The notes beneath the pieces are model-generated. The model was not told where the DNA came from. It made no database searches and saw only the letters and a list, made by a program, of their open reading frames with translations. Of a stretch of DNA of 64,000 nucleotides, positions 11,121 to 59,137 are shown one piece after another (position 1 is the first letter of the stretch; each line of letters opens with the position of its first letter). Made by a program: the position numbers and the translations under genes. The stretch covers positions 91,657 to 155,656 of the forward strand of contig JAAFIH010000003.1 in assembly GCA_013297755.1 (NCBI GenBank), written 5' to 3'. The DNA is from Cytophagales bacterium (GTDB lineage Bacteria > Bacteroidota > Bacteroidia > Cytophagales > UBA9547).

Positions 11121-11328
11121 GGTTTTAGTTGTGGAGATATGAAAATATAAGGACTTTATTTTGTTTATTTTAATCGTTACAAACGATTATTTCGACCGCC
11201 CCCGTTGCAAACGAGGGCGATTGGGTTTTAGTTGTAGAGATATGAAAATATAAGGACTTTGTTTTGTTTATTTTAATCGTTACAAACGATTATTTCGACC
11301 GCCCCCGTTGCAAACGAGGGCGATTGGG
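11121..11328. repeat. Two tandem 103-bp copies of a REP-like unit
   Basis: Two nearly identical units of period 103. Each carries the phrase GAGATATGAAAATATAAGG and two palindromes: AATCGTTACAAACGATT and CGCCCCCGTTGCAAACGAGGGCG (written here as a stem-loop, not continuous evidence of coding). A third, partial copy with both palindromes is at 53019-53100. No transposase is present in the window. Confidence 0.75.
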
Positions 11329-11344
11329 TAAATCCAAAAAATAT

Positions 11345-13822
11345 TTATTGCACCACCAATTTTACACTTTTTGAACCAATATCTGTGGTTAGTTTTACAA
11401 TATACAGCCCAGGACTGAGTTCGCTTTCTGGGATAGTATATTGATAGTTGCCTGCTTCTTCATTTTGGGTATTTATTACTGATTTGGCAAGGCTACCCAT
11501 AGCATCAAATATTTGGATATTTACTGCATTGCTATATTGGGGAATATCATAATATATAGTTGCAGAGTGCTGCATGGGGTTTGGGGCTATTTTGAGGGAG
11601 AGGATGGAGGAAAAGTTATTTGATTTTTCTAAATTTAAACTATCTTCTGCTAGTCTTGCACAACTTACAAAACATCTAAAATGTTTCATTCGTATGTTTT
11701 TTGAGATCACTTTATATTGGCCATAATACTTAAATTTCACATCTAATCTATAATAAAATTCCTCTTCTTCTTTTAAGTTTCCCCATTGCCAGTCTGATTT
11801 TGCAACTAAATTCATAGTTTTGCCTGTTGTAATAGACCAATGAGAATCTCTACCATTAGGATGTGGATAAATAATCCATTCTGGATTTTCTACGAATGTT
11901 TCACCATCTGTTGCTGAATTAACTTGATTGGATACAAATTCAAATTTACGTGCAGGAGAGGCACCTATGCTACCTGTATAATATTTTATTAAGCCTTCTC
12001 CATAAGTTTTTATTTCAAAACTTGGTTCTGTTAAATAGGCCTGAGATTTAACATTGGCATCTGGACAGTAAGCTCCAAATTTAACAGGTTCTACACAAGT
12101 ATTTTCATTAGCACTTTGTTCTGTATATGCTTCAAAAGGTAAATTGTTAGAATCAAAACCCTCAGCTAATATTACCATATCGCCTGCTACATATTTAATT
12201 TTTCTAAATATTTTAGGTATGTACTTAAATAAATCTGGTGTTAAAAGTTTCGTATTACCTACAAGTATATCTTGTCCTACTATTTTTATTGAATTCGAAT
12301 TAGCAATTTTTGTTTGTAATTTTGTCATTTTGCCAGCTGTTTTTATCAAATATAAATTATGTAATAGCATATACTCAAGTCCATTGAGATGTTCTTTGTT
12401 TTTGTTTACATTTGCATCATAAAAATTTCTTATAAATTTATTGTGTTTTTCGTCTGCGTTCCAAAGATATGTTCCTCGATCTTCGTTGTGTTTTTCTCGA
12501 CATTGCATACCATCACAAGGGGCATCTTGTAATTGTTTGTAGATATAAGGATTGATATTTTCTGAATTAAATTCATAAAGAGTGGCATTTAGCAATGGCT
12601 GTAAATAGCTTTCAAAAGAACCAAAATAACTTACTAATTCATCATAAGTTGTAGTACCTCCTTTGTAGTTTGACATGGCAGAAAGAATGCCAGCATATCC
12701 AGCAGCAAAATCGTTGCCAGAATTTTGTTTAAAGCCAAATGCATTTATGATATAAGGGCCATATTTAGATTGGTCGCTACGTGAATAATCACAAACTCTG
12801 TCAGGTTTAGTAAGTGTAGATATAAAATTTGAATAAAAAGCAGAGCTTGTAAAATTTATATCATTTGGAATTGAAACCCTATTGTTTCCAAAATTATCAT
12901 GTATTTTTGTTAGTGGATATTGATGAAGACTAATATCTGGTTCTAATCCTGCAGGATATTTATAATAAGTATAAAGTCTCCAATCAAAATTATGGGCTCT
13001 TTTTAAAATTCTTGTAATTGTTTCTTTTGCCCATTGTTGTGGTTCAAAACTTATATAAATATTGGATTCATTTTTTGCACCCATTTGAACAGGTGCATAT
13101 TTGGCAAATAAAGTCAACCCTACCAATAAATAAGTTATTTGATCTGGACTTAAAATATTACCACCTCCTTTTAAGTACCAATCAGTAATAAAATCTTTTT
13201 TGCTTCCATCGTTTATACAATCAGATTTTGAGTTTTTTATGAAAATACTTCTTAAAATATTAATACTTTCTATACTTTTCATTTGAGGATAATATCTTTG
13301 AGCAATTCTTTTTTCATCAAAAAATCGTCCTAAAAATTCTCTGGTAACATCGTCCCTTAACATCATTCCATCTTTCACTTTGTAATTTCTCTGTTCAATA
13401 AAGTCATCACCTAAAAAAACTTCAGAGTTTGCATCAAGTCTATCTAGTGCAGATAAAGCTTCAAAAATCTCTTGTTCTAAATCTGAAACATTTTCATTTG
13501 CATTTTTTAAGAGCTTCCACTCAGTAATTAAAGTTCCAAGATATAACCCAAGTAAAATAGTACAATCTCCAAATCTTATGTTTGGAAATTTAGCCATATC
13601 TATTTCGCCATATCCTGTTATGTATTCTTTAGTGCCATGAGCAATGGTTTTGATTTGTGATACAGGCAAAGAATATCCACCAATAAAGCTATTACCAAAG
13701 CCCCTGAGTATAAAATTATCATTGAAATCAGTCCTATAATTCCAATATTTTTCAGTTATGGTTTGTTGAGCAAATGAGTCAAATAGAAACATAAAGCATA
13801 AGATAAAAGTATTTTTTTTCAT
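11345..13822 (-). CDS. Secreted protein with T9SS type A sorting domain, function unknown
   Basis: An 825-residue protein with a Sec signal peptide (MKKNTFILCFMFLFDSFAQ). The C-terminal 80 residues form a type A sorting domain: IAPNPMQHSATIYYD, then VNIQIFDAMGSLAKSV and a final LSPGLYIVKLTTD..SVKLVVQ. It should be exported by the type IX system and attached to or released from the surface. I recognise no catalytic domain in the central part. It is the last gene of the operon headed by the fibre-like gene at 16725 and overlaps the preceding lipoprotein gene by 4 bp, so translation is probably coupled. The second fibre operon also contains a T9SS-A cargo protein. Confidence 0.75.
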   Translation of the reverse strand: MKKNTFILCFMFLFDSFAQQTITEKYWNYRTDFNDNFILRGFGNSFIGGYSLPVSQIKTIAHGTKEYITGYGEIDMAKFPNIRFGDCTILLGLYLGTLITEWKLLKNANENVSDLEQEIFEALSALDRLDANSEVFLGDDFIEQRNYKVKDGMMLRDDVTREFLGRFFDEKRIAQRYYPQMKSIESINILRSIFIKNSKSDCINDGSKKDFITDWYLKGGGNILSPDQITYLLVGLTLFAKYAPVQMGAKNESNIYISFEPQQWAKETITRILKRAHNFDWRLYTYYKYPAGLEPDISLHQYPLTKIHDNFGNNRVSIPNDINFTSSAFYSNFISTLTKPDRVCDYSRSDQSKYGPYIINAFGFKQNSGNDFAAGYAGILSAMSNYKGGTTTYDELVSYFGSFESYLQPLLNATLYEFNSENINPYIYKQLQDAPCDGMQCREKHNEDRGTYLWNADEKHNKFIRNFYDANVNKNKEHLNGLEYMLLHNLYLIKTAGKMTKLQTKIANSNSIKIVGQDILVGNTKLLTPDLFKYIPKIFRKIKYVAGDMVILAEGFDSNNLPFEAYTEQSANENTCVEPVKFGAYCPDANVKSQAYLTEPSFEIKTYGEGLIKYYTGSIGASPARKFEFVSNQVNSATDGETFVENPEWIIYPHPNGRDSHWSITTGKTMNLVAKSDWQWGNLKEEEEFYYRLDVKFKYYGQYKVISKNIRMKHFRCFVSCARLAEDSLNLEKSNNFSSILSLKIAPNPMQHSATIYYDIPQYSNAVNIQIFDAMGSLAKSVINTQNEEAGNYQYTIPESELSPGLYIVKLTTDIGSKSVKLVVQ

Positions 13823-14415
13823 TTTCTTAGTGTTAGTTTTACAGATTTGTCTTTATTTTCAAATATAAATTCAGTTTCGTTTAATTGTGTAAATTGCCAT
13901 ATTATCCAATTAGATCTTCTTATCTTTAATACATCAATAAATGAATTTTTCAAAGAATCTGTTGCATTTATACCAAGTTGATAGGTATTATCATTTATTT
14001 TTAAAATTTCTCTATCAGTTATAATTTTAGTACTTTTTGGCAAAAAATTTATATATATCATTTTAAAGTTTGTTACGTCTTCGTTGTTTAAACATTCTCT
14101 GTAAGAATCAGCTTCAGAACCGCCAGCTCTTTTGCACAAATCATCATAATATCCTCCAATTTCTAATTTTTGGGCATTATACTTTTTTAATGTATCATTA
14201 CTCAAAACTGAATTTATGTATACATTTGTAATGGAATAAAAGCCTTTGTATTTGTTATAAAAATCAAAAAAAGGTTCATACTTTTTTTTACATTCAGTAA
14301 TTCTTTTTTCTACAGTTGAAGATTCGCAATAATAAGGTACTTGCAATAAACCACCACAAGAGTTTACTAAACATACTAAAAATAAAATAGCTATATAAAA
14401 TTTGTATTCTTTCAT
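13819..14415 (-). CDS. Lipoprotein, paralogue of the next upstream gene, lipocalin-like end
   Basis: 198 residues with lipoprotein signal and lipobox CLVNSC (Cys at residue 20). It is clearly paralogous to the gene at 14412-15002. Shared blocks are CE.STV..RI.ECKKKY, YSIT..Y...VLSND.L.KY and the end TEFIFENKDKSVKLTL, which recalls the last strands of small lipocalin-like lipoproteins. Six or so conserved cysteines may form disulfides in the periplasm or on the surface. It overlaps both neighbours by 4 bp, so it sits inside a tightly coupled operon. Function unknown. Confidence 0.65.
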   Translation of the reverse strand: MKEYKFYIAILFLVCLVNSCGGLLQVPYYCESSTVEKRITECKKKYEPFFDFYNKYKGFYSITNVYINSVLSNDTLKKYNAQKLEIGGYYDDLCKRAGGSEADSYRECLNNEDVTNFKMIYINFLPKSTKIITDREILKINDNTYQLGINATDSLKNSFIDVLKIRRSNWIIWQFTQLNETEFIFENKDKSVKLTLRK

Positions 14416-15002
14416 TTCTTTAATTCTAATTTTACAGTACGACTTTCGTTTTCAAACACAAATTCAGTGTTACTTTTTTGTTTAAATATCCAAAATGTTT
14501 TGGTATTTTCTGTTCTAAATTTGAGAATATCTACTATGTTTATTTGTGGTGGACTTAAAGATAAAATTTCCATTTTATAGGTATTGTTACTTTCACTTAT
14601 TATTTCTTTTTTTGTTAGTAATTTTGTACCCTTCAATGCACCATTTATATAAAATATTTCAAAATAGGGAATGTCTTCGCCTTCCAAACAATTACTTTCG
14701 ATGTAATATGTTTTTCTTTTGCAAAAATATTGCCCATCAAAATCTTGTATTTCTATACTTTTTATTTTGTACTTTGATAGTGAATCGTTACTCAGTACAT
14801 TATCAAGATACAACCCAGTAATTGAATATTCGCCTACATATTTAGTTTTAAAATCTATATAACTTTTATATTTCTTTTTACATTCGTTTATTCTTACATC
14901 TAAGGTACTTGCTTCGCATACTTCTTTTTGTGAGCCTGGATAATTGCAACCACCAAAACTTAAATAAAAAATTAATATGGTAAAATTTATAAAATTTTTC
15001 AT
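14412..15002 (-). CDS. Lipoprotein, tandem paralogue of the following gene
   Basis: I choose the ATG at 15002 because it gives a proper lipoprotein signal (MKNFINFTILIFY then the lipobox SFGGC) and a length of 196 residues, almost equal to the 198-residue paralogue. The frame is open further upstream to 15059, but that would run into the preceding gene. The mature part aligns with the paralogue throughout: CEASTLDVRINECKKKY, YSITGLYLDNVLSND, NTEFVFENESRTVKLELKK. The pair therefore arose by tandem duplication and has diverged strongly. Function unknown. Confidence 0.62.
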   Translation of the reverse strand: MKNFINFTILIFYLSFGGCNYPGSQKEVCEASTLDVRINECKKKYKSYIDFKTKYVGEYSITGLYLDNVLSNDSLSKYKIKSIEIQDFDGQYFCKRKTYYIESNCLEGEDIPYFEIFYINGALKGTKLLTKKEIISESNNTYKMEILSLSPPQINIVDILKFRTENTKTFWIFKQKSNTEFVFENESRTVKLELKK

Positions 15003-15042
15003 ACAATAAAATTTAAAAATTATTCGATAAATGTTACCTAAC

Positions 15043-15972
15043 TTAATATTTGTATTCATATACAGTAGAATCAGATGTTAAAATATCTTTTCGTTTGTAG
15101 TTAGAAATACATTTATTTTTGATAGTATAGGTAAAAACTTCATTTTGTTGAAAGCCTAGTGAGGAATTATATTTTTTTGTAGCCATCAAATTTTTGTTTC
15201 TGTTTCTACCCCTTAAATATGGATTAGTGCCGCTTGGACCTAAGTCTTTGTCAAAAATTATCCATTGTGGGTGTGTAGAATAAGTGTAGTCTTCTGTGAT
15301 AGTTTCTGTTGGAATATTACTGATAACATTAAACTTATGTATTATTTTTTTTATTAAATTATTATCAGAGTTGTAGGAGTACAAAATAGAGTCTTTTCTT
15401 ACTATACTATTTTGACTAAATGTAAAATCTATTTGCCATCCTGGTCGTCCACAATCATTATAGTTTCCCATAATAATACTATCTGTGGTCTTATTTTTGG
15501 ATTTGTATACAGCATTAATGATATTTTTTTTCACATCGTAAGTATAGTTATATGAGATGGTATCCACACCTGATCCATAATCGCTAATTTCTATAAGTTT
15601 AGTAATAATACCACCTTCAATATAAGTATATATATAGTCTTGTTTTTCAGTAGCAAAATCTAAATAACTTGAAATAAGATTTTGATTGTTGTCATATTTT
15701 AGAAATTTTGTACCTAAAAGAGTAGTTTCATTAAAAAAACTAATATTCTCTATGTTTTCGCCTTTAAAAGTAAATTTTTGGGTTAAACCAAATTCATCTA
15801 TTGATAAAGTTGGTTTGCAACTATTTTCTATAATAGGGCAAAGTACCAATGGTGTATTATTGGGTAAAGGATTTTGATTATTGCCTGTATTTTTAGGATT
15901 TGCATCATCTTTTTTGCATGCAATAGTAAATATGAGGTAAAAGTAAACTGAAATTAGCTTTATATTTTTCAT
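15043..15972 (-). CDS. Lipoprotein with YD-repeat-like segments
   Basis: 309 residues. Lipobox FTIAC (Cys at residue 19) is followed by an Asp/Asn/Pro-rich linker (KKDDANPKNTGNNQNP), typical of surface-directed Bacteroidota lipoproteins. The mature part contains spaced motifs such as KFLKYDNNQNLISSY, YNYTYDVKKNIINAVY and ILYSYNSDNNLIKK, which resemble the Y-D-x-x-G-N-L units of YD/RHS-type repeats in single-domain form. It is the third gene of the operon, 33 bp after the preceding gene. Function unknown. Confidence 0.6.
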   Translation of the reverse strand: MKNIKLISVYFYLIFTIACKKDDANPKNTGNNQNPLPNNTPLVLCPIIENSCKPTLSIDEFGLTQKFTFKGENIENISFFNETTLLGTKFLKYDNNQNLISSYLDFATEKQDYIYTYIEGGIITKLIEISDYGSGVDTISYNYTYDVKKNIINAVYKSKNKTTDSIIMGNYNDCGRPGWQIDFTFSQNSIVRKDSILYSYNSDNNLIKKIIHKFNVISNIPTETITEDYTYSTHPQWIIFDKDLGPSGTNPYLRGRNRNKNLMATKKYNSSLGFQQNEVFTYTIKNKCISNYKRKDILTSDSTVYEYKY

Positions 15973-16005
15973 ATTGTTTTTTTTTGTTTTAGTAATATTT
16001 TAAAT

Positions 16006-16707
16006 TTAAGGTTTAGGGCCGTAATAGATTAACCTAGTGTGGTAGTATGTGTTCCAAAAGTAAAATTCTTTGTATAATGTGCCTACCTCTTTATTGTAAT
16101 TTATATAATCCAAACAAGATTCTTGTTTTATAGAATTATTGATATAAAGTAAACATTTTGCAATATAGGTTGAAGAAAAATTACCAGCTGGTACAGCTAA
16201 AATTGGTTTACTTTTGCAAACAACAATTTCTGTGCTACCAAATCTGTCATCTTTTTTAGAAATTGTATCATTTATTTTTAGATTAGTTTTATAAAAAATT
16301 TCTCTATAATAATAGTTAATTTCAATAGAATTTTTAAAAGAATTTTCATACCTAAATCTAAACAAGGTTCCTAAAGAGTCGAAGTATATAAAATTTGCAT
16401 TTGTATTTCCAATAGCCACATATTTTAAATTTTTGATAATAGTATCTTTAAAAAATTTTATAGTATCATAAATATTACTCCATTGAATAGTGTTGGGCAT
16501 ACCATCTACAGTTGTTGTTCCACTTTGGTATACCCAAATATTGCCAGAAGTGTATGTTTTTATGGCACCAGTATCAATTTTTGGTTGGTCTTGCTTAGCA
16601 TTGAGTGGTTTTGGGTCGTCTTTTCGGCACATCGTAAGAACTAAAGAAAATGATACCAAAACTATCCCAAAATATCGTTTTGTGTTTTTTTTCAAAATAT
16701 TTTTCAT
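16006..16707 (-). CDS. Lipoprotein of unknown function
   Basis: 233 residues with lipobox LVLTMC (Cys at residue 27) followed by RKDDPKP, a charged linker. The mature part has a beta-rich pattern (GNIWVYQSGTTTVDGMPN, FIYFDSLGTLFRFRYEN, AVPAGNFSSTYIAKC), the last resembling a VPAGTF-type motif seen in other Bacteroidota lipoproteins. It begins 17 bp after the fibre-like gene, consistent with cotranscription. No function can be assigned. Confidence 0.6.
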   Translation of the reverse strand: MKNILKKNTKRYFGIVLVSFSLVLTMCRKDDPKPLNAKQDQPKIDTGAIKTYTSGNIWVYQSGTTTVDGMPNTIQWSNIYDTIKFFKDTIIKNLKYVAIGNTNANFIYFDSLGTLFRFRYENSFKNSIEINYYYREIFYKTNLKINDTISKKDDRFGSTEIVVCKSKPILAVPAGNFSSTYIAKCLLYINNSIKQESCLDYINYNKEVGTLYKEFYFWNTYYHTRLIYYGPKP

Positions 16708-16724
16708 ATAAATTGTTTTTAAAA

Positions 16725-18725
16725 CTATTTAAGTTTATCAATTTGTTTTTTCATTTGTTCGTTTTCTTTTTTAAGGTTAATCAAATGTAATGTAAGTTCT
16801 TCAGTTTTTTTTGTAAGAATTAATATAAGATGCCCAACATCAATTCCATTTTTATCATACAAATCTCCATTATCGAAATCAGGTAAGTGATGATTTTTAT
16901 TGATATAATCTTCAGTTTCTGACAAACTCATTAGTTTATAATTTGCATCAAAAACGTAGTCAGGAAAAGTAGCACCAGGACTACAATATACCCTTTGTGT
17001 TGCAATTTTGCCCAAAACTACCATATTTCCATCCACACTCAATTTATAATCGTTGGTGGTAGGTTTTTGAGAGCCTATTTGCACACGTCCATCATTCATA
17101 ATTTTTAGTCGTTCTGTAAAATTTGTTTTTAGTGCAATGTCAGTATTATTTACTCGCTCTATGCTTTCGCCAGAGCCAGTGCCACCAAATACTATGGTAT
17201 TTCTATCTTTTATAGCATTGAGGTCGGCCATGGTAACATCGCTTGTGGGCAGTGGCTGGCTGCTAACCAGGCCAATTTCGTTTGTTACCAACATACGTGT
17301 ACCTGTGCCTGCAAGGTTGCGAACTCGTAAATTTCCATTTACATCTAATTGAGCTCTAGGATCGTCTATATTGATACCTACAAAATTGCGGGTAGGCTCA
17401 CCGCCAAAATTTTTGTTAAATATATTGATAGTTTTCGTTTTTAGACTGTTGATTTCGGCAACGATATTCATATTACCTCCAATTTCGGAGCCATCTTTGA
17501 ATCTGATAGCTCCTTGTGGAGTAATCGTAATGCCATTGCCTGCGGTATGTTGTAGTACTAGCCCAGAAATTGTATTAATAATTTCGGCTTCCGAAGATAA
17601 TACATATATTACTTGGGTAGGAGAAGTGCCACATTTTGTACTCGAATTGGAATTTGTTGGGCAATAAGGATGTATGGGCGATGTGGTAGTGAGGCTTATA
17701 CTACGCCAACTATTAGCACCAGTTTGCACGCCAAAACTATGAACATACATCAATATAGGGCTTCCTTGCAAGAGCAGTTTATTACCAATTTGCACACTAC
17801 CAGCTGTATATGCAAGTCCATTGGGCTTTACTTGCCAAGTATTAGAAAATTGAGCATTGAGTGTAGTAAATTGAGTATTGATATTAGAAAATTGGGTATT
17901 GAAGCCTGATATTGTGTTATTGATATTAGAAAATTGGGTGTTGAAACCTGATATTGTGTTATTGATATTAGAAAATTGAGTGCTGAAACCTGATATTGTG
18001 TTATTGAGGTTAGAAAATTGGGTGTTGAAACCTGATATTGTGTTATTGAAGTTGAGTATTTGAGAATTTAGACTAGAAAATTGCGTATTGAAGCCAGTAA
18101 TAGTCGAATTAATCCCCGTTTCAAGGTTTGATATTCGTAAGTTTAACCCTGTATTTGTGGCCAAAAGTTGGGTGTTTAAGCCAAGTAAACTAGCGTTTAT
18201 TGTGTTTTGTAGATTCGTTATTCGTAAGTTTAACCCAGTATTAGTAAGCACAAGATTGGTATTGGCAAGCAACATTTGGGTTTCTAGTGTGCCAATTCTA
18301 GTATTCTGACCAATGATAGAGGTAATAAAACTAGCTGAATTGATAACAGTATTGTCTGGAAATCGTATGACACCATTCATCATCAGAATGGCATTAGTGC
18401 TACCAGCCAAGCCTATGCTTACTTGCCCAGTGGCTGAGGGTTCGAGTTGAGTAATTTTATCAATAGAAGATTCTGAAATATTAAACCTAATTGTATTATT
18501 GAGTTTGAATTCTAAACCTTTAATATTCGAACTAGGCTCAGATTCTTGCTCGAAGATGTTATAGTATCGAATATAATTAGCAAAAGAACTTCCAAAATAG
18601 ATTCTATTTTCAATAGGTTCATTAAAAAAAATGTTTGGCTGAACTGATACATTTTGACTACCATTTACATTCCACTGCCCCTGAGCCAAAAATTGGTGCA
18701 ACACACATATATATATAGTTGCCAT
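16725..18725 (-). CDS. Fibre-like coiled-coil surface protein, phase-variable candidate (copy 1)
   Basis: Long frame of 667 residues from the internal ATG at 18725. The frame stays open upstream to a TTG at 18854, but that lies inside the promoter. After a hydrophobic leader (MATIYICVLHQFLAQGQ) come a beta-rich head, a central run of about 14-residue units (FNTQFSNINNTISG type), a fibre-like middle with DGRVQIG and DVNGNLRV blocks, and a C-terminal segment found in tail-fibre-like Bacteroidota proteins (PDYVFDANYKLMSL, HHLPDF, GIDVGHL, EELTLHLINLKKEN) that ends as a coiled coil. The promoter-proximal ATG at 18823 reads into the pentanucleotide array but is out of frame as sequenced: it stops at TAG 5 nt before the ATG at 18725. 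It is paralogous to 57019-58959 and heads an operon of lipoproteins. Confidence 0.7.
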   Translation of the reverse strand: MATIYICVLHQFLAQGQWNVNGSQNVSVQPNIFFNEPIENRIYFGSSFANYIRYYNIFEQESEPSSNIKGLEFKLNNTIRFNISESSIDKITQLEPSATGQVSIGLAGSTNAILMMNGVIRFPDNTVINSASFITSIIGQNTRIGTLETQMLLANTNLVLTNTGLNLRITNLQNTINASLLGLNTQLLATNTGLNLRISNLETGINSTITGFNTQFSSLNSQILNFNNTISGFNTQFSNLNNTISGFSTQFSNINNTISGFNTQFSNINNTISGFNTQFSNINTQFTTLNAQFSNTWQVKPNGLAYTAGSVQIGNKLLLQGSPILMYVHSFGVQTGANSWRSISLTTTSPIHPYCPTNSNSSTKCGTSPTQVIYVLSSEAEIINTISGLVLQHTAGNGITITPQGAIRFKDGSEIGGNMNIVAEINSLKTKTINIFNKNFGGEPTRNFVGINIDDPRAQLDVNGNLRVRNLAGTGTRMLVTNEIGLVSSQPLPTSDVTMADLNAIKDRNTIVFGGTGSGESIERVNNTDIALKTNFTERLKIMNDGRVQIGSQKPTTNDYKLSVDGNMVVLGKIATQRVYCSPGATFPDYVFDANYKLMSLSETEDYINKNHHLPDFDNGDLYDKNGIDVGHLILILTKKTEELTLHLINLKKENEQMKKQIDKLK
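17879..18053. repeat. In-frame 42-bp repeats inside the fibre-like gene
   Basis: About four tandem units of 42 bp containing the phrases GAAAATTGGGTGTTGAAACC and TGATATTGTGTTATTGA, each encoding 14 residues of the type FNTQFSNINNTISG. The period is a multiple of 3, so copy-number change would alter fibre length without breaking the frame. Confidence 0.8.
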
Positions 18726-18760
18726 AATAGCTACCCTGCTAAAAAACGAGCGAGTGTTGA

Positions 18761-18820
18761 GTTGTGTTGTGTTGTGTTGTGTTGTGTTGTGTTGTGTTGT
18801 GTTGTGTTGTGTTGTGTTGC
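18761..18820. repeat. Pentanucleotide GTTGT array (11 perfect units plus one GTTGC)
   Basis: Twelve consecutive 5-bp units (last one GTTGC) with one further degenerate unit GTTGA on the proximal side. On the coding (minus) strand the unit is ACAAC. The array lies between the ATG at 18823 and the signal-peptide region of the fibre-like gene. Each gain or loss of one unit shifts the frame. Confidence 0.95.
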
Positions 18821-18851
18821 CATAGTTTTTATAATTTCTTGGAGGTTTATA

Positions 18852-18883
18852 CAAATTTAGAAATTAGAAGTTATATTTGCAAA
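18852..18883 (-). promoter_or_regulatory. Promoter of fibre operon 1
   Basis: On the minus strand TTTG (18883-18880), exactly 20 nt, then TAAATTTG (18859-18852). The match to TTTG / TANNTTTG is perfect. The expected transcription start is about 18845, leaving a leader of about 22 nt before the ATG at 18823. The same boxes with the same spacing precede fibre operon 2. Confidence 0.75.
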
Positions 18884-18904
18884 TATTAATACAGTTATTT
18901 TTTT

Positions 18905-19135
18905 TAGGAGTTCGTAGTTAGGAGTTGGGAGTTGGGAGTTGGGAGTTGGGAGTTGGGAGTTGGGAGTTGGTAGTTGGTAGTTGGTAGTTGGGAGTTGGGA
19001 GATGGTAGTTGGGAGTTGGGAGTTGGGAGTTGGGAGTTGGTAGTTAGGAGTTGGGAGTTAGGAGTTAGGAGTTGGGAGTTGGTAGTTGGTAGTTGGTAGT
19101 TAGGAGTTGGGTGTTGGGAGTTGGGTGTTGGATGT
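18905..19135. repeat. Heptamer minisatellite (GGGAGTT / GGTAGTT), G-quadruplex prone
   Basis: About 30 consecutive 7-bp units, mostly GGGAGTT with GGTAGTT and AGGAGTT variants. From 18927 onward successive GGG runs are spaced by exactly 4 nt, the pattern of an intramolecular G-quadruplex on the plus strand. It lies 25-250 bp upstream of the promoter of fibre operon 1. Confidence 0.9.
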
Positions 19136-19214
19136 ATTTTTAAAAGTGTTACTAAACAAATCTATCCTTATTACGCCATAAACTTAGTTTATCCAACAAA
19201 TATGGTATCAAAAC

Positions 19215-19251
19215 ACAAAAAAAAGGTTTGCACAAATTGTACAAACCTTTC
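19215..19251 (-). terminator. Rho-independent terminator of the DUF3078 gene
   Basis: Stem AAAGGTTTG / CAAACCTTT with an 11-nt loop, followed on the minus strand by a run of T. It lies about 20 bp after the stop codon at 19272. Confidence 0.75.
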
Positions 19252-19271
19252 TGATAATTAGTTCAAGTTGG

Positions 19272-20165
19272 TTATTTCGTATTTTTAATTGTGTATTTTA
19301 TACCTATAGTCAAGGCTTGGCTTATTTGTAGTTCTGGAGTTTTGGATACTGGCGATAGCTGATCTTCGTTGTAAATCAAAACACCTTGTAAACTTACATT
19401 GATTATTTTATAAATTTTAGCCGAAAGCACTGCATCCAAACGGTTGGTTGTGTGTCCTAATTTTTCGTAAGCTCCAAAATGTTGGTACAACAATTTAAGA
19501 TTGATATTAGACACCAAGTCTTTGTCAAATTTAGCCAAAAAGAAATAACCAAATTCATTTTTCAATGACAGTCCTGGTTTTACACCATAATGCTCGCCTT
19601 TGGCGTTGGCCACATTCTTTTCGATTTGTCCATCAATCGAAAAAGTTTGACGAAAGGCAATAGGAGCAAAACGTGCTTCAAAATAAGGAACTGGTGCATA
19701 GATAATACCTATGGCTTCTGTAAGATAACCTGGTGCAAGAAAAGTAGAAATTCTGTTACCCTTAGGGTCGCCTCCTTGATACCCAGATGTAAATTGAGAC
19801 TGAAAATTGAAACCAGCCCATGCTCCCCAAGGTCCTTTTACGGCCAGAGCATAGATATTATCAATAAAGATTCGATCCAAATTTTTTCTCCATCCTGCAG
19901 AAGCAGCATTAATTACACCATAATCGAGGTACATAGTTGATGTAAGGCTATGTCTATTTTTTACATATTTTGAGTTGCCATAAGCATAAGTTGATATGGC
20001 CCAGTTGTTTACCCCACCAGCTGTCCAATCTTTGTTAAACCAAGCTTGATTGATATTCAAGCCCAAATCTAAACTTCTGTTCCAATAAGTAGTATCTTTG
20101 ATTTGTGCAAAAATACTGGTCGTAAACAAAGCGAATCCTGCTATGGTAAATTTAATTTTATTCAT
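19272..20165 (-). CDS. DUF3078 domain-containing protein, probable outer-membrane barrel
   Basis: 297 residues with a Sec signal peptide ending IFAQ (about residue 21). The mature protein begins DTTYWNRSLDLGLNINQAWF followed by DWTAGGVNNWAISTY, the hallmark opening of DUF3078 proteins. It continues with alternating aromatic and hydrophobic strands (YFEARFAPIAFRQTFS, NEFGYFFLAKFDKDL) to a final SQALTIGIKYTIKN. This suggests an outer-membrane beta barrel confined to Bacteroidota. Function unknown. It is monocistronic with its own terminator. A CAAATATA (TATATTTG on the coding strand) at 20204-20211 is a possible -7 box. Confidence 0.8.
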   Translation of the reverse strand: MNKIKFTIAGFALFTTSIFAQIKDTTYWNRSLDLGLNINQAWFNKDWTAGGVNNWAISTYAYGNSKYVKNRHSLTSTMYLDYGVINAASAGWRKNLDRIFIDNIYALAVKGPWGAWAGFNFQSQFTSGYQGGDPKGNRISTFLAPGYLTEAIGIIYAPVPYFEARFAPIAFRQTFSIDGQIEKNVANAKGEHYGVKPGLSLKNEFGYFFLAKFDKDLVSNINLKLLYQHFGAYEKLGHTTNRLDAVLSAKIYKIINVSLQGVLIYNEDQLSPVSKTPELQISQALTIGIKYTIKNTK

Positions 20166-53018: not shown

Positions 53019-53100
53019 AATATAAGGACTTTTTTTGTGTATTATAATCGTTACAAACGATTATTTCGACCGCCCCCGTTGCAAACGAGGGCGATAGGGG
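53019..53100. repeat. REP-like unit, third copy
   Basis: Contains AATATAAGGACTTT and both palindromes (AATCGTTACAAACGATT and the CGCCC..GGGCG stem) in the same order as the tandem pair at 11121-11328. About 80 bp. The rest of the spacer 52684-53202 holds only the two hairpins. Confidence 0.75.
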
Positions 53101-53202
53101 TTAATCAGAGACACTCCCAAACTGTTATTTTCTTAGTGAAGACTACTGAGAAAGGGAAAGAACCCATACAATAGCAAAAAATTAATTAATAAGTAAGTTA
53201 AA

Positions 53203-53727
53203 TTACTTTTCTAACAATATCAAATTGCCATATATTTGCATAGTGTCAGTCCAAGATCCAGCTAGATTTTGACACACAAATGGGTCGAAAGTGAATACTT
53301 TGCGACCTTTGGCATCTACATCTATTGTGAGAATATCGCCATTGCCCGACATAGCTGTATACACAATAGTAGCACCATTTTTGGTGTTTTGCATATTGAT
53401 ATACACATTTTTGGTGTTGATAGAATCTGGCAAATATTTGATTACAAACTTGCTTTTAGCCGCTGGTATGGCTCGTATGCCCATGTTTAAAACTCTGTAG
53501 TCGGCATTGGAAACATAATCTACTGCTGTAAGTATAATATAGGGGCTATCTTGTTGCTTTTGCAAAAAAGCATATACTTTTCGGCCATTGATATAATAAA
53601 AACTGCTGCTGTCGGCTACTGGTTTTGTAGTGTTTGGTAAGGGCGAATTGTTGGTTGGGGCTGGTGTATTGGTACTGCCACAGGCAAATAGCAAAGATAA
53701 TACTGGAATGATTATGTAATTTTTCAT
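53203..53727 (-). CDS. Lipoprotein of unknown function
   Basis: 174 residues with lipobox LLFAC (Cys at residue 16) and a Thr/Asn/Pro linker (GSTNTPAPTNNSP). The mature part contains short beta strands (FYYINGRKVYAFLQKQ, YVINMQNTKNGATIVY) and ends DTMQIYGNLILLEK. Last gene of fibre operon 2, 6 bp after the preceding gene. No family recognised. Confidence 0.55.
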   Translation of the reverse strand: MKNYIIIPVLSLLFACGSTNTPAPTNNSPLPNTTKPVADSSSFYYINGRKVYAFLQKQQDSPYIILTAVDYVSNADYRVLNMGIRAIPAAKSKFVIKYLPDSINTKNVYINMQNTKNGATIVYTAMSGNGDILTIDVDAKGRKVFTFDPFVCQNLAGSWTDTMQIYGNLILLEK

Positions 53728-53733
53728 GTTTTT

Positions 53734-54126
53734 TTATGGACGAGTTGGATAAAATATAAAGGTAACTTTTTCGTAGGAATATACCAATTCTTGCATCGTT
53801 ATACTTTTGATTTCAAATATTTTACTATCGCAAATGGTATTTATAAGTTGTATTTTGTTGAGTTTTGCATTAAAAGCCCAACGACCTTTTGTTTTTATGG
53901 TGTCGTTTAAAATGGCTGTGTAGCTATAATCTGTATCAAATTTCATTTGCCATTTTGGCTTATTAGACATATCAATTAAAGTATCTTTGTTGGATACTTT
54001 GGCACTTTGCCAAACTACTGAGGTAATAGCTTTGAACTGAAAACTATCTTTTATTAAAGTTTTGGGGGTAAAGCAAAAAAACAAAAAACTTACAAACAAG
54101 AGTACTATTTTAAAGTATGTTTTCAT
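53734..54126 (-). CDS. Small secreted lipocalin-like protein
   Basis: 130 residues with an N-terminal hydrophobic signal (IVLLFVSFLFFCFTP), in which a Cys could serve as lipobox. The mature part recalls the small lipocalin-like domain of Bacteroidota: WQMKFDTDYSYTAIL, then TKGRWAFNAKLNKIQL and the final FEIKSITMQELVYSY..TFIFYP. The same strand pattern ends the lipoproteins at 13819 and 14412 of the other fibre operon. It lies 1 bp after the protease gene. Function unknown. Confidence 0.55.
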   Translation of the reverse strand: MKTYFKIVLLFVSFLFFCFTPKTLIKDSFQFKAITSVVWQSAKVSNKDTLIDMSNKPKWQMKFDTDYSYTAILNDTIKTKGRWAFNAKLNKIQLINTICDSKIFEIKSITMQELVYSYEKVTFIFYPTRP

Positions 54127-54127
54127 A

Positions 54128-55777
54128 TTATTTTAAAATTATAAATTTTAATGTTTGAGAATAACTTTGGGATGTAAATTTACAAAAATAGGTTCCTGAT
54201 AACAAATCTGAACTGTTTATTAGAATAGATTGCAATCCTGATTGTTGCGTTTGAGTTTCTATATTTTTCAGAATAGTGCCCGTAGAATTTAGGATTTCTA
54301 TTTTTATGTATTGGTTTTCGGCTTCGTTAAATTCCAGTTTTATTTCTTTTGAAGCAGGATTTGGACTTAGAGCAATGGCATAGCTTACAGATTCCTCAAC
54401 TTCTGTAGCTTGAAACTCAGGGTCAAATTCCATGCGTGCCAAATTGCAGTTTGATAATGCATCTTCTTGGCCAGTCTCTCTGGCATTAGCTGGGCTACAG
54501 GCTTGGTTGTTCATTTCAAATGTAGCATTGGGGTCTATATCAAAATCGCCAGTACCAATGTCTATATCTGGGGCATTGATTACAAAATCTGAACCAGCAA
54601 AGGCTCTTAACCTGCCGCCATTGTGGTCGGTGCCTACACCTGTGGCTAACACTGCTCTTGTGGATGCGTTGATAGTTATTTTGTTTTCAGGTTGATAATC
54701 TTGGGCTCGAAAATAGTTGCCATTGAGTGCCAAAGGATTGCCAGAGAAGCAGTTGGGTTGCTGGCCATCTATACCTGTTACAAAACCAAAAGCATTTTCA
54801 AGGTAGGTTTTTTTGCGAGAATCTAAGGCTTGGCGCAAACTACCAGAGGCATTCCAAAAACTGTGTAGCCTGCCAAACCATTCGCCCAAAGTACCCCTTA
54901 CATCGCAGGTGCTTAAACTGCCACTTAGCATACCAGTTATTCTATTAGAAGTGGTAAATAAACTTGCACCTGAAGAACCATGTTCTAAGACCCCAGATGT
55001 AAAAAATGGAACTAAAACTTTAGGATTTTCAATATAAGTGCATAAAGTTTCGGTTCTAAATGTGGTAATCCATCCAAAAAAAAAGTTTAAAACAGCATCA
55101 ATAATTACTGTAATGGTATGGCAATAGGCATTTTGTAAAATATCTATAGAAGTAAATGTATAAGCTGATTTTTTAATGTCACCTCTTGGATGATGGATAA
55201 CATACTTAGGCAGCCCACCCACTAGTGGATTAATTGTAACATCCCATCCAGCATAATATACATTGAAATGTGGAGGAATAGGAGTAAGAATTTCAAATAA
55301 GGCTCCATCCACCCAGCCATTATTGGCTACTCTGCGAACACGGCTGGAAAACGAGTACCTATTGCCGACTCTTGCACTAATTACGTTTCTACTTATTGGG
55401 TCTATAAATGTATTTGCAGGTACTGAACTATCATCACAATTAGGACTTTGGTAATTAAAGAAAAATTCAAATTCAAAATCTAATGAATACTCTTGAAAAC
55501 AATGATCAGCTGTAATAAAATATTGCCTTAACCTACCACCAGCATCATAAAATTGATTTATCATAGTGCCTGTGCAATTGTAGCGTTTGCCGTCTGACTC
55601 TAAATGATTAAACTTAAATGTTGCCCTGACATTATCCTTATTCATATATGATGTTTGTGCATCTGCGCAATGAATATTTTTTGACCTTTGGCAATCTCCT
55701 GATGCTTGAAATGATCCTTGTGAAAAAATAATTGTAAAATTAAATGTTATTACTAAAATTGTAGTTATATACTTCAT
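54128..55777 (-). CDS. Secreted trypsin-like serine protease with T9SS type A domain
   Basis: 549 residues. Signal peptide 1-19. Trypsin-like fold with the catalytic triad visible: His92 in ITADHCF, Asp157 in GWVDGALFEI and Ser269 in EHGSSGASLF (the GxSG motif). Cysteines 29, 37, 68 and 93 suggest disulfides. The layout (short N-terminal propiece, then Cys-rich trypsin domain) resembles lysyl endopeptidase-like proteases. The final 80 residues are a T9SS type A sorting domain (IALSPNPASKEIKLEF ... DLLSGTYFCKFTSQ..QTLKFIILK). It lies 2 bp after the Cys-rich lipoprotein gene. Two truncated relatives lie upstream at 56272 and 56972. Confidence 0.87.
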   Translation of the reverse strand: MKYITTILVITFNFTIIFSQGSFQASGDCQRSKNIHCADAQTSYMNKDNVRATFKFNHLESDGKRYNCTGTMINQFYDAGGRLRQYFITADHCFQEYSLDFEFEFFFNYQSPNCDDSSVPANTFIDPISRNVISARVGNRYSFSSRVRRVANNGWVDGALFEILTPIPPHFNVYYAGWDVTINPLVGGLPKYVIHHPRGDIKKSAYTFTSIDILQNAYCHTITVIIDAVLNFFFGWITTFRTETLCTYIENPKVLVPFFTSGVLEHGSSGASLFTTSNRITGMLSGSLSTCDVRGTLGEWFGRLHSFWNASGSLRQALDSRKKTYLENAFGFVTGIDGQQPNCFSGNPLALNGNYFRAQDYQPENKITINASTRAVLATGVGTDHNGGRLRAFAGSDFVINAPDIDIGTGDFDIDPNATFEMNNQACSPANARETGQEDALSNCNLARMEFDPEFQATEVEESVSYAIALSPNPASKEIKLEFNEAENQYIKIEILNSTGTILKNIETQTQQSGLQSILINSSDLLSGTYFCKFTSQSYSQTLKFIILK

Positions 55778-55779
55778 TT

Positions 55780-56256
55780 TTATTCAATGATTAAAGCTAA
55801 TCCAGTTTCTGTTTCAAATCCTTTTGGCTGTTTGATTTCTTTATTATTTAAGTAAATCTTAAAATTACTCAATCTGTGTTGTAAACATTTGAAAGTTTGC
55901 TTAGCAAAGCACTTTTCTTCGCAAATCCCACCATTTATTACATATTCTATATTCAAAATAGAATCTTTTTTATTATTACATTTATCATAAATTAAGTAAT
56001 TAAAGTCTTTTATATTTAGCGTATTAGTGAATGTTGAATTTTTAATTTCATAATTTTTGTTGCTATCAGGTATCCATATAATAGAATCTATTACTTTATT
56101 TTCGATTTTCGATTTTTTAAAAAGTATAACACATGATTTTAAAGAATCTCTACTGATTGATACAAGTATTTTTTCGCCATCACAACAAACACAAGAAGGG
56201 CCACTACAACAAGAGCTAATAAACAAAATAAATAAAATGTTAAATAAATACTTCAT
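55780..56256 (-). CDS. Cys-rich lipoprotein next to the protease (paralogue of 56513)
   Basis: 158 residues. Lipobox ISSC with Cys at residue 16, followed by CSGPSCVCCDGEK. A second cysteine cluster lies near the end (NGGICEEKCFAKQTFKC). The gene at 56513-56953 is a paralogue with the same plan (start MKY..., twin Cys at lipobox, NGxCxxxC near the end). It lies 2 bp before the protease gene. It could be a dedicated inhibitor or immunity-like partner, but there is no direct evidence. Confidence 0.6.
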   Translation of the reverse strand: MKYLFNILFILFISSCCSGPSCVCCDGEKILVSISRDSLKSCVILFKKSKIENKVIDSIIWIPDSNKNYEIKNSTFTNTLNIKDFNYLIYDKCNNKKDSILNIEYVINGGICEEKCFAKQTFKCLQHRLSNFKIYLNNKEIKQPKGFETETGLALIIE

Positions 56257-56271
56257 GACTTAATGATTTTT

Positions 56272-56529
56272 TTAAATAAAATACTGCCTTAACCTACCAC
56301 CAGCATCATAAAATTGATTAATCATTGTGCCAGAGCAACCACCGCTACTTTGATTGCTATATAAAAAAGTTGCTCTTATATTATCTTTAATAAAGTAGCT
56401 GGTTTGAGCATCAGAACAATGTACGTTTTTTGTATCTTGACAATCACCAGAATATTCAAATGCCTGACCATAAATATTGAAAAAAGTATAGCTTAAAGTA
56501 ATTACACATATTTTAGTAGATAATTTCAT
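56272..56529 (-). pseudogene. Truncated paralogue of the protease, N-terminal part only
   Basis: 86 codons (ATG 56529; an upstream ATG at 56538 is also possible). Signal peptide, then FEYSGDCQDTKNVHCSDA, the segment IKDNIRATF and the end GGRLRQYFI. This aligns with residues 1-88 of the protease at 54128 and stops one residue before its ITADHCF block, so the catalytic His, Asp and Ser are all missing. Its stop codon is followed 15 bp later by the next lipoprotein gene. It overlaps the upstream lipoprotein gene by 17 bp. It may still be translated as a short secreted peptide. Confidence 0.75.
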
Positions 56530-56953
56530 TTCCTTCAATAGTTTTATTGTTTATATTTATTTTATAATTTTCATATAACTTGCAATTATATTTATCACCA
56601 TCGAATACAATAAAACATTTATTACAAACACCACTTGATATTCTATTTGTATTAGTAATTTTTTTTATGGTATCACTTATATTGTTGTAATTAATAATAT
56701 AAGTGTAATCTAATATTGATTTTGATATTAGATTACTAAATGAACCTAAATATAAATATGAATTTGTTATCTTTTTTTCTATTACAAGTCCATTAGATTT
56801 ATCAATAATTTTAATTGTAATTGTATCATTATCAGTATTGTTAAAAGATAGTGAAATATTCTCATTTGTAAGACATGTACAGTCTTTTTTTGTGCAACAA
56901 CTATATATAAAAAAAATAGCAAAAATCCACAAAATAAAAATAACATATTTCAT
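56513..56953 (-). CDS. Cys-rich lipoprotein, paralogue of 55780
   Basis: About 146 residues from the ATG at 56953, chosen because it matches the paralogue's start (MKYVIFILWIFAIFFIYSC). Lipobox IYSC is followed by CTKKDCTCLTNEN and near the end SSGVCNKCFIVFDGDKYNC. The body is Asn/Ile/Lys-rich with short beta strands. It precedes the truncated protease copy, so protease-fragment and lipoprotein appear as a repeated pair. Function unknown. Confidence 0.6.
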   Translation of the reverse strand: MKYVIFILWIFAIFFIYSCCTKKDCTCLTNENISLSFNNTDNDTITIKIIDKSNGLVIEKKITNSYLYLGSFSNLISKSILDYTYIINYNNISDTIKKITNTNRISSGVCNKCFIVFDGDKYNCKLYENYKININNKTIEGNEIIY

Positions 56954-56971
56954 ACTTTTAAACATTTTAAT

Positions 56972-57018: not shown

Positions 57019-58959
57019 TTATTTTTCAAGTTTAGAAGTTCTTTTTTCTATTTGGATAATATACAATGTTAATTCTTCAATTTTTTTGAGGAGTAAAGTA
57101 TTCAATTCTGTAAGTTCTATTCCACTTTTAAAAACTTCTGTTTGGCTAGGAATTTCTTTCAAATGTTTGTGCTTAGTAATAAATTTTTCTACTTCTATTA
57201 GATTTGGCAATTTGTAATTTTTGTCAAATACATCGTCTGCCCAAATAGTAGGATTTGAGCGATATCCTTTGGAAATAATTTTTCCATCAACACATAGTTT
57301 ATAATTAGTGTCTGTAGGTTTTTGAGAGCCTATTTGCACTCGTCCATCATTCATAATTTTTAGTCGTTCTGTAAAATTTGTTTTTAGTGTTATTTCAGTA
57401 TTATTTATGCGTTCTATGCTTTCGCCAGAGCCAGTGCCACCAAAGACTATTTTGTTGCCAAAGGCGAAATTGGCCATTTCTTGGCTTGTTACAAGTCCAT
57501 TGGCATCTGTAACCAACATTCTTGTACCTGTGCCTGCTAGGTTGGCTACTTTCAAATTTCCACTAATCTTTACATTTCCTGTTACATCTAGTTTTTCGGT
57601 GGGGTTGGCTGTGCCAAGCCCTAAGTTTCCTCCAATATTGGCTGCACCACTAATCTTTACATTTCCTGTTACATCTAGTTTTTCGGTGGGCGATGTGTTG
57701 CCTATGCCCACAAAAGCCTCTGAATTGTCTATGTATGTGTTGGTTTGGGCTGGTTTGGTGGCTGTGCATGTCATATTAGTGCCTGAATTATAAAAATAAG
57801 AGGAATTAGGTGTGCCTCCTGCTGCTCTGCATCTGTTTCTGTATGGGTTAGGGTCAAACTGATTGGGGGTTACATTTGCATAAAACTGGTCTGGTATAGG
57901 GTTTGAGGTAGATGAAGGCACATTGGCGGTTGTCCATATTTTGTTTGCAGCAAGGCGTGTGTTCAAATCTGAAAGCTGCGTTTGCACTCCTTGCACATAG
58001 CCTGAGCCAATTTCTGAATTATCTTTAAATTTGATACTGCCAAGTGGGGTTACTAGCACTGGGTTGGCATCTGTGTATGATAATTTGAGACCTTTGCCCA
58101 GGTCGAGGTCTATTTTGCCAATGGCAGACATTGAGGCTGTTTCAGGAAACGAATTGGCCACTTTTGAGCAATTATTATTTCTCAAATCTACTGTAGGCCA
58201 TTGACTTTTCACAACTATTACAGAGCATTTGGGTGTGCCATTGGTATTTACCCCAACCTGTACTGGGTACACGTGCACATACATACCTGTGTTGGCAGTG
58301 CCGCTTTTGGGTAATTGTATGCCATTATCAATCCTAGAACTACCACAAATGGTAGTGTTGCCACAATAATATAGCCCTGTGGGGCGAATTTGCCAAGTAT
58401 TATTTATATGAGTATTGACAATGGACATTTGAGTATTAAGCCCAACCATTGATGAAAGAAAGTTAGTTTGTTGAGCATCCAGGTCATCGAGCGATGAATT
58501 GAGATTAGATAATTGTGTGCTAAGACCCAAAAAAGAAGTATTTAAACCAACAATAGAAGTAAGAAAATTGGCAGAACGCAGTACAGTGTTGTCTGCAAAT
58601 TGAATGCCGCCATTCATTATTAGCATAGCATTGGTGCTACCAGCCAAGCCTATGCTAACTTGACCAGTGGCTGAGGGTTCGAGTTGGGTAATTTTGCCAT
58701 ATAAAGTTTCGTCTGATATTTTAAAACGTGTACTATTGTTTAGCCTAAATTGAAAGCCATTTGATGCTGTACCAGCTTCTGGGTCGCCTATGTTGTAATA
58801 TTGCAAATAATTTGAGTAGGCGTTGCCAAAGTATATTTTATTGTCGTTAGAAGAGTTGAAAAATAGATTGGGTTGGTTGGATACATTTTGGTTGGCTGAT
58901 ACACTCCACTGCCCCTGAGCCAAAAATTGGTGCAACACACATATATATATAGTTGCCAT
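57019..58959 (-). CDS. Fibre-like coiled-coil surface protein, phase-variable candidate (copy 2)
   Basis: 646 residues from the ATG at 58959. Near-identical leader to copy 1 (MATIYICVLHQFLAQGQW), a similar head (PNLFFNSSNDNKIYFGNAYSN, QLEPSATGQVSIGLAGSTNA), a shorter coiled-coil stretch, two repeated EKLDVTGNVKISG blocks, and the same C-terminal segment (DVFDKNYKLPNLIEVEKF, ELTLYIIQIEKR). The promoter-proximal ATG at 59035 reads M-I and then the ACAAC array but is out of frame and stops at TAG 13 nt before the ATG at 58959. Nine units instead of eight would join it to the long frame. Heads an operon with two Cys-rich lipoproteins, the protease and two small proteins. Confidence 0.7.
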   Translation of the reverse strand: MATIYICVLHQFLAQGQWSVSANQNVSNQPNLFFNSSNDNKIYFGNAYSNYLQYYNIGDPEAGTASNGFQFRLNNSTRFKISDETLYGKITQLEPSATGQVSIGLAGSTNAMLIMNGGIQFADNTVLRSANFLTSIVGLNTSFLGLSTQLSNLNSSLDDLDAQQTNFLSSMVGLNTQMSIVNTHINNTWQIRPTGLYYCGNTTICGSSRIDNGIQLPKSGTANTGMYVHVYPVQVGVNTNGTPKCSVIVVKSQWPTVDLRNNNCSKVANSFPETASMSAIGKIDLDLGKGLKLSYTDANPVLVTPLGSIKFKDNSEIGSGYVQGVQTQLSDLNTRLAANKIWTTANVPSSTSNPIPDQFYANVTPNQFDPNPYRNRCRAAGGTPNSSYFYNSGTNMTCTATKPAQTNTYIDNSEAFVGIGNTSPTEKLDVTGNVKISGAANIGGNLGLGTANPTEKLDVTGNVKISGNLKVANLAGTGTRMLVTDANGLVTSQEMANFAFGNKIVFGGTGSGESIERINNTEITLKTNFTERLKIMNDGRVQIGSQKPTDTNYKLCVDGKIISKGYRSNPTIWADDVFDKNYKLPNLIEVEKFITKHKHLKEIPSQTEVFKSGIELTELNTLLLKKIEELTLYIIQIEKRTSKLEK

Positions 58960-58989
58960 AATTGCTACCCTGCTAAAACACGAGCGAGT

Positions 58990-59029
58990 GTTGTGTTGTG
59001 TTGTGTTGTGTTGTGTTGTGTTGTGTTGT
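58990..59029. repeat. Pentanucleotide GTTGT array (8 perfect units)
   Basis: Eight consecutive GTTGT units (ACAAC on the coding strand) between the ATG at 59035 and the signal-peptide region of the fibre-like gene. The flanks are identical or nearly so to those of the array at 18761, including CTCGCTCG and the TATATATATA stretch downstream. Confidence 0.95.
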
Positions 59030-59061
59030 TATCATAGTTTTATATTTCTAAGAGGTTTATA

Positions 59062-59093
59062 CAAACTTAGAAATTAAAAGTTATATTTGCAAA
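59062..59093 (-). promoter_or_regulatory. Promoter of fibre operon 2
   Basis: On the minus strand TTTG (59093-59090), 20 nt, TAAGTTTG (59069-59062). Same boxes and spacing as operon 1, with strong identity in the spacer. Expected start about 59055, leader about 20 nt to the ATG at 59035. Confidence 0.75.
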
Positions 59094-59137
59094 TATTTTT
59101 TCAATTTTTTTTTGAGAAATAAATTACTTTTTTTAAT

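Follow-up and report, generated by a model that had tools for sequence, protein, structure and literature searches.

The most familiar examples of switches in which a coding repeat turns a gene ON or OFF come from pathogens, the gonococcus among them. In the poly-C/poly-G contingency genes of Campylobacter and Helicobacter, a homopolymer tract within the coding region sets the gene in or out of frame. The opa genes of Neisseria carry CTCTT coding repeats in the signal-sequence region, and the register of these repeats decides whether the gene is fully translated, according to passages of two accounts (PMC13183285, PMC3960869); a passage of the former adds that fewer gonococcal opa genes are in frame than chance predicts. 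For Streptococcus gallolyticus, excerpts of PMC3894217 describe GCAGA repeats in a separate short leader open reading frame (ORF) at the head of the pil1 surface operon, where they act on a terminator hairpin, and part of PMC11868660 describes the phase variation of surface structures in Bacteroides as proceeding mostly by DNA inversion. Here, we analyzed a 64,000-nucleotide stretch (the window) of a Cytophagales bacterium of the lineage UBA9547 (assembly GCA_013297755.1, contig JAAFIH010000003.1, positions 91,657 to 155,656). On its minus strand, this window carries an array of 5-bp units at the start of a gene for a fibre-like protein, F1, to which an inspection of the letters alone (the sequence-only reading) had drawn attention. 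We interpret this array, with a probability of about 0.84, as a translational ON/OFF contingency switch that would bring about opa-like phase variation through exchangeable leader cassettes.

The anatomy of the F1 leader and its register arithmetic can be read directly from the DNA as assembled. From position 18883 to 18725, the minus strand holds, in this order, a promoter of the form TTTG-N20-TAAATTTG, which we take to be the Bacteroidota type, the ATG at 18823, the array, and the region coding NTRSFFSRVAIMATIYICVLHQFLAQGQW. The array is a pure tandem repeat, located at the start of the coding region, with a unit that is not a multiple of three; an AACTC variant unit adjoins the signal peptide, and the perfect run measures 59 nt. 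The twelve GTTGT-type units listed in the sequence-only reading are present, but this additional variant had been missed there. All its F1 coordinates proved accurate; the promoter, the ATG at 18823, the TAG (18733-18731), and the internal ATG at 18725 are present as described, and the two ATGs lie 98 nt apart. In the assembled register, the leader frame ends at this TAG after 30 codons. The proposal that one unit fewer would join ATG 18823 to the long frame was reproduced when the frames were recomputed: they join at -1 unit and also at +2 units, giving 697 or 702 amino acids (aa), while the other unit counts (-3, -2, 0, +1, and +3) lead to a stop after 25, 24, 30, 29, and 35 codons, respectively. 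The promoter and the start codon upstream of the repeat were assigned from sequence pattern and start context, and it should be noted that the promoter pattern alone is not rare, with 4 matches in the window for 3.42 expected from shuffles. A TTG at 18854 is a possible upstream start in the F1 long frame; as it lies within the TAAATTTG promoter box, it is not expected to be part of the mRNA.

In the proposed mechanism, the mRNA would start upstream of the array, ribosomes would start at ATG 18823, and replication slippage would alter the count of 5-bp units. In one register in three, the ribosome would continue from the array through the signal peptide (NTRSFFSRVAIMATIYICVL...), which is basic and hydrophobic, and the fibre would be made and exported, presumably to the cell surface. 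In the other two registers, a TAG right behind the array would end translation and no fibre would be made. The downstream lipoproteins and the cargo of the type IX secretion system (T9SS) would probably also be reduced in these OFF registers by polarity, as expected of operons in general. The leader, comprising promoter, ATG, repeat, and signal peptide, would act as a cassette that can be exchanged before different secreted proteins, and a cell would thereby hold several independent switches. These switches might serve adhesion, or help the cell to evade phages or grazers.

Three paralogous loci that differ from F1 in unit number support the central claim of the sequence-only reading, namely that ATG 18823 is linked to the fibre frame or cut off from it depending on the count of units. 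A search of the same genome (G000, 4.24 Mb) returned four fibre loci with a pentamer leader: F1 and F2 in the window, and C30 and C69 at contig ends. Their arrays count 13, 8, 18, and 12 units (F1, F2, C30, and C69, respectively), and their leader ATGs stand 98, 76, 123, and 97 nt from the internal ATGs, which corresponds to 2, 1, 0, and 1 modulo 3. All three registers therefore occur among four paralogs; as assembled, F1, F2, and C69 are OFF, and C30 is ON, with a predicted fused peptide, MATQHN...NTRSCFSRVAIMATIYLCVLHQFLAQGQW, that stays open for 232 aa up to the contig end. A promoter with a 20-nt spacer is found 26-28 nt before the leader ATG in all four. The 3' parts of the C30 and C69 loci probably lie at the ends of contigs C3 and C55, a joining that we infer, because the contig ends have no common 20-mer. 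The leader DNA is nearly identical in the four paralogs and the bodies differ; we did not use this conservation as proof of selection, as exchange between paralogs would give the same result. Likewise, the off-frame stops right behind both window leaders are not claimed as a selected feature, stops being frequent at 33% GC.

These arrays are confined to the leaders. The three-unit sequence GTTGTGTTGTGTTGT has 34 exact matches in the genome, all of them within the four leader loci, and it is on this genome-wide three-unit search that the confinement of the ACAAC matches rests. A survey of perfect arrays in 135,818 bases of the genome (periods 2-6 and 8, with at least 6, 5, 4, 4, 3.5, and 3 copies; period 7 was excluded, heptamer arrays being common) gave five rows, all in the four leader loci, two of which had been chosen for their arrays; only the two rows from the window are free of this bias.

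A search with the F1 C-terminal region led to further fibre-like genes, in which tracts of another class were found. In the same genome, the gene on contig C7 (L053:1900-2250) reads ATGACAAGTTTTAGAATTT, ten C, and ATTTTCTACTTATAAG, and the gene on contig C36 (L055, minus strand near 5978), found through its protein, reads ATGCATCTTTTAAAATTTA, seven C, and ATTTTCTACTTATAAG; both are OFF. In G005, a Bacteroidetes metagenome-assembled genome of the same genus (record RDZG01000075.1), one gene has a nine-C tract and is ON, giving MKVTLKFTPPHFILISIFSICFAMQTNAQ (L070), and another has an eight-C tract and is OFF (L072). The leader CATTTTCTACTTATAAGTATATTTA is common to these four genes, with one or two changes in G005. 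Poly-C tracts are thus located between the ATG and the signal peptide, at the same place as the pentamers, in two species, and the genome under study has at least six putative leader switches belonging to two classes, four with pentamers and two with poly-C tracts. From a point just past the signal peptide, the DNA of the fibre genes on contigs C36 and C9 is 94.7% identical for 1,660 bp. Ahead of this shared part, the poly-C leader is found in the gene on C36, and an ordinary signal peptide with no tract in the gene on C9. Two different signal peptides thus precede one near-identical mature protein, and leaders can be paired with mature proteins in a modular way.

Poly-C does not mark such leaders in general, since only the contig C7 tract, out of the 10 tracts of at least eight C in this genome, stands between an ATG and a signal peptide. 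An eight-C tract lies in the 5' region of an ORF that resembles, by eye, heme O synthase (L064 around 1500, G000:C9:94650), the frame of which could start at a GTG before the tract. At two contig ends (C7:104798 and C8:136; L062 and L063), coding frames also contain eight-C tracts, which are followed by nearly identical sequence.

The comparison set comprised 10 genomes of the family, 3 of the genus, and 291 of the order. In G005, an array reading ATGACAAATACAATACAATAC..., with 7.8 copies of AATAC, precedes one fibre relative; it is the only place in the three genus genomes with four AATAC units. The genes that follow this fibre match those after F2, three of them at identities of 68% (the protease), 71%, and 65% (the next genes). 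The third genus member, G006, has two ATGAGCAACACAAC... loci, both of which end at contig ends inside the array. Across the order, five perfect ACAAC units were detected in 4 of the 291 genomes, at 8 loci (four in the genome under study, two in G006, and one each in G033 and G214). All eight are on the sense strand with an ATG no more than 35 nt before the array, and the six that can be read past the array all lead into a signal-peptide frame, as judged from hydropathy and by eye. In G033 and G214, which belong to two other families, a lipoprotein-type signal peptide lies behind the array, out of frame by one unit. The role of unit number gains further support from this recurrence of ATG-pentamer leaders, found in the two other genomes of the genus and in two further families, and from the poly-C tracts that occupy the corresponding position in related genes. 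In G033 (L079), two pentamer arrays, ACAAC and then AATTC, stand in series between the ATG and the signal peptide.

Viral contigs provided a loose contrast, not a matched control, as they come from mixed hosts: 19 stretches held 20 ACAAC arrays, of which 10 had an ATG within 38 nt. Nearness to an ATG was therefore dropped as a stand-alone test, and it is the signal-peptide frame and the strand that carry the argument. A frame of at least 100 codons runs behind three of these 10 viral arrays, and in no case does its beginning resemble a signal peptide, as judged by eye. One register yields the full protein and the others stop early at F1, F2, C30, C69, the contig C7 and C36 genes, the nine-C gene of G005, and the G033 and G214 loci, as far as the sequence reaches.

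Ribosomes that stop at the leader TAG might restart at the internal ATG at 18725, in which case the array would set the level or the N-terminus of the fibre and not its presence. The sequence-only reading had raised this alternative for the off frames, and it fits the position of the F1 stop, 5 nt before the internal ATG, as well as the G005 pentamer locus, where an internal start is needed if that fibre is made. Start contexts were scored with a matrix built from 81 starts of long frames, a small set that was taken mechanically and holds doubled and probably false starts. The upstream contexts of the leader ATGs of the four pentamer loci lie at the 97.9, 92.0, 96.7, and 99.6 percentile of all window ATGs; those of the internal ATGs lie at the 64.8, 75.2, 66.1, and 64.8 percentile, and at the 9.9-16.0 percentile of the training starts, even though the training set itself includes those of F1 and F2, which should favor them. 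When F1 is translated from the leader, its most hydrophobic 12-residue stretch scores 2.64 and is preceded by two basic residues; with translation from the internal ATG, the best score is 1.60 and no basic residue precedes the stretch. Moreover, the first ATG codon of the long frame in the contig C7 poly-C gene is codon 134. Given the poor start context, the less hydrophobic stretch, and the missing basic residues, reinitiation is disfavored and we consider it unlikely.

The outline of promoter, leader peptide of 5-bp repeats, and surface operon also recalls pil1 of S. gallolyticus, where the repeat number shifts the leader stop relative to a terminator hairpin and thereby controls transcription of the operon. 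However, no terminator-like site was listed on the coding strand between 18823 and 17595, the leader RNA stretches fold no better than shuffles (z-scores of 0.62, 0.14, and 0.25), and the C30 leader is fused to its fibre; we give attenuation hardly any credence. The near-identical leaders on differing bodies, which point to exchange between loci, and the OFF state of most loci would also be expected if the array were a neutral microsatellite or a recombination site that spread with the leader by gene conversion, its effects on the frame being incidental. This explanation seems very unlikely to us in view of the different pentamers (AACAC, AATAC, or AACAC then AATTC) that occupy this position ahead of different signal peptides in three of the order's families, of the poly-C tracts found there in related genes of the genus, and of the sense orientation of all eight ACAAC loci.

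Several observations weigh against the contingency switch that we favor. The G005 pentamer locus departs from the one-register rule: a TAA stands right behind the array, no repeat number joins the leader ATG to the fibre, and all registers from -3 to +3 units end at 11-23 codons. The ATG adjoining this array lies at the 57.3 percentile, with an in-frame ATG 12 nt upstream at 96.4; the locus may be locked off, use another start, or carry an assembly error. The eight-C gene of G005 departs from the rule as well, as its frame ends 39 codons after the tract even when the register is right. The start context of the poly-C leader ATGs is less clear, at the 72.8, 98.6, 85.3, and 99.0 percentile. Only 2 of the 11 loci assessable in G000, G005, G033, and G214 are ON in the assemblies, namely C30 and the nine-C gene of G005; F1, F2, C69, the contig C7 and C36 genes, the G005 pentamer locus (in every register), the eight-C gene of G005, and the G033 and G214 loci are OFF, the two G006 loci not being counted. 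Random registers would give one third ON, and with 11 loci no difference can be claimed. The ACAAC motif and the fibre match are each absent from 287 of the 291 order genomes, and 7 of the 10 family genomes, in which other units were not searched, have no ACAAC motif, fibre match, or poly-C leader. The variation in unit number observed is that among paralogs and between sister species, not within one lineage. In addition, the assemblies are drafts in which homopolymer lengths can be wrong. Finally, a 256-nt gap separates the first two of the five genes in the F2 downstream set, and the later ones may thus have their own promoter.

We tentatively suggest, at somewhat less than even odds, that the Bacteroidota possess a general class of exchangeable secretion-leader cassettes that would turn operons of secreted proteins into independent random switches, the chemistry of the tract being exchangeable and its position conserved. 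This would extend multi-locus phase variation beyond the well-studied pathogens. What is new here is that the system spans several loci, includes a second class of tract, involves modular exchange, and recurs in other families; two families of the order besides its own have the same pentamer design. If the source organism is free-living, the question could be tested via repeat numbers in metagenomes. As their frames are broken in the assembly, such secreted proteins may be missed or shortened by gene prediction.

The gene sets associated with these leaders are listed in Table 1. Downstream of F1 lie four lipoprotein-like genes and a T9SS cargo, which the sequence-only reading had described as overlapping or abutting; counted from F1 on, the successive gaps are 17, 33, -17, -4, and -4 nt. 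The gene sets after the different fibres are not alike, showing scattered similarity. The ends of the F1 operon and of the operon on contig C3 share 97.8% identity over 272 bp in the T9SS C-terminal part, followed by a 103-bp element. This element has hairpin-like parts (by eye), and at least one similar stretch each lies behind F2 (about 53019-53106) and behind the C3 operon (L051); these operons therefore have a 3' element in common besides the 5' leader. Long heptanucleotide arrays of the CAACTCC/CAACTAC type lie just upstream of the switch promoters (window 18907-19131 and 59137-59386). They were set aside as a possible second switch, as the motif has 270 overlapping matches genome-wide (up to two mismatches) and the type is already described, a passage of PMC4679880 reporting long intergenic heptamer arrays in Bacteroidetes. 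Elsewhere in the window, large tandem repeats of 438 and 243 bp occupy positions 42270-45053.

No usable Pfam, NCBIfam, or PHROG family was found for the fibre; most of the weak matches fall in the coiled-coil part, and those to Pfam and NCBIfam are far below the cut-offs. Two weak coiled-coil matches in a profile search of solved structures (E-values of 0.0051 and 0.0075) were not used. The AlphaFold model of F1 with two relatives is unusable (mean predicted local distance difference test score of 37) and at most suggests a long helix at 141-306. Weak partial fibre matches were observed in G130 and G236, and the viral-contig scan returned no relative of the fibre N-terminus.

Table 1 Coordinates of the F1 and F2 loci and of related features. 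Positions refer to the window unless a locus is named.
Feature	Position	Strand	Basis or remark
F1 promoter, TTTG-N20-TAAATTTG, presumed Bacteroidota type	18852..18883	(-)	Pattern match
F1 leader ORF as assembled, OFF, 30 codons then TAG	18731..18823	(-)	ATG 18823
F1 pentanucleotide array, 12 AACAC + 1 AACTC (GTTGT on the + strand)	18754..18819	(-)	
F1 internal ATG, candidate reinitiation start	18723..18725	(-)	Poor context
F1 fibre-like protein, long frame: leader NTRSFFSRVAIMATIYICVLHQFLAQGQW, then repeats and coiled-coil-type C-terminal stretch	16725..18758	(-)	
F1 operon, lipoprotein-like gene 1	16006..16707	(-)	Lipobox by eye; no Pfam or NCBIfam match at E 0.1
F1 operon, lipoprotein-like gene 2	15043..15972	(-)	Lipobox by eye; no Pfam match at E 0.1
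F1 operon, lipoprotein-like gene 3, start maybe 15002	14412..15059	(-)	43% identical to gene 4 over 174 aa
F1 operon, lipoprotein-like gene 4	13819..14415	(-)	Similarity to gene 3
F1 operon, T9SS cargo (Por_Secre_tail, TIGR04183)	11345..13822	(-)	Family match
Two 103-bp repeats 3' of the F1 operon	11121..11329		Similar sequence 3' of the F2 and C3 operons
F2 promoter (paralog)	59062..59093	(-)	Pattern match
F2 leader ATG 59035 and array of 8 AACAC, OFF	58988..59035	(-)	76 nt to internal ATG 58959
F2 fibre-like protein, long frame from array end	57019..58992	(-)	
F2 downstream genes: small lipoprotein-like genes and lysyl-endopeptidase-like T9SS cargo (54128-55777)	53203..56965	(-)	
Near-identical fibre-like pair	L054 3900-6866; L055 3447-5978	(-)	Ordinary signal peptide (L054); poly-C leader (L055)

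Compared with the contingency genes of Campylobacter and Helicobacter, the poly-C tracts described here differ in lying between the ATG and the signal peptide of secreted fibre-like proteins of Bacteroidota. Unlike in pil1, no hairpin was found between leader and fibre, and the two can form a single fused frame. Surface phase variation, predicted here from sequence, would be shared with capsule and invertible-promoter switching in Bacteroides, of the same phylum, as described in part of PMC11868660; the switching there works through DNA inversion. Inverted repeats flanking the promoter were not found (18600-19300, arms of at least 12 nt), the only hairpin, with arms 1 nt apart, being located on the upstream side of the promoter. 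Among the matches listed in a search of the open-access literature, none dealt with repeat-driven coding phase variation in signal-peptide leaders of Bacteroidota. By mechanism, the design is closest to that of Neisseria opa, with which it has in common 5-bp repeats close to the 5' end of a gene for a secreted surface protein, a register that would decide on full translation, several unlinked paralogs, and exchange among these paralogs, as far as passages of PMC13183285 and PMC3960869 describe them. It is not a member of the opa family, as both the unit and the protein differ: neither F1 nor F2 has a Pfam or NCBIfam match at E 0.1 that would indicate homology to the Opa outer-membrane barrel, and the unit is AACAC (or AATAC, AATTC) instead of CTCTT. 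Unlike in opa, the repeat comes before the signal peptide's basic and hydrophobic parts, and the fibre-like protein heads a set of lipoprotein and T9SS genes in a member of the Bacteroidota, with a poly-C version of the leader alongside.

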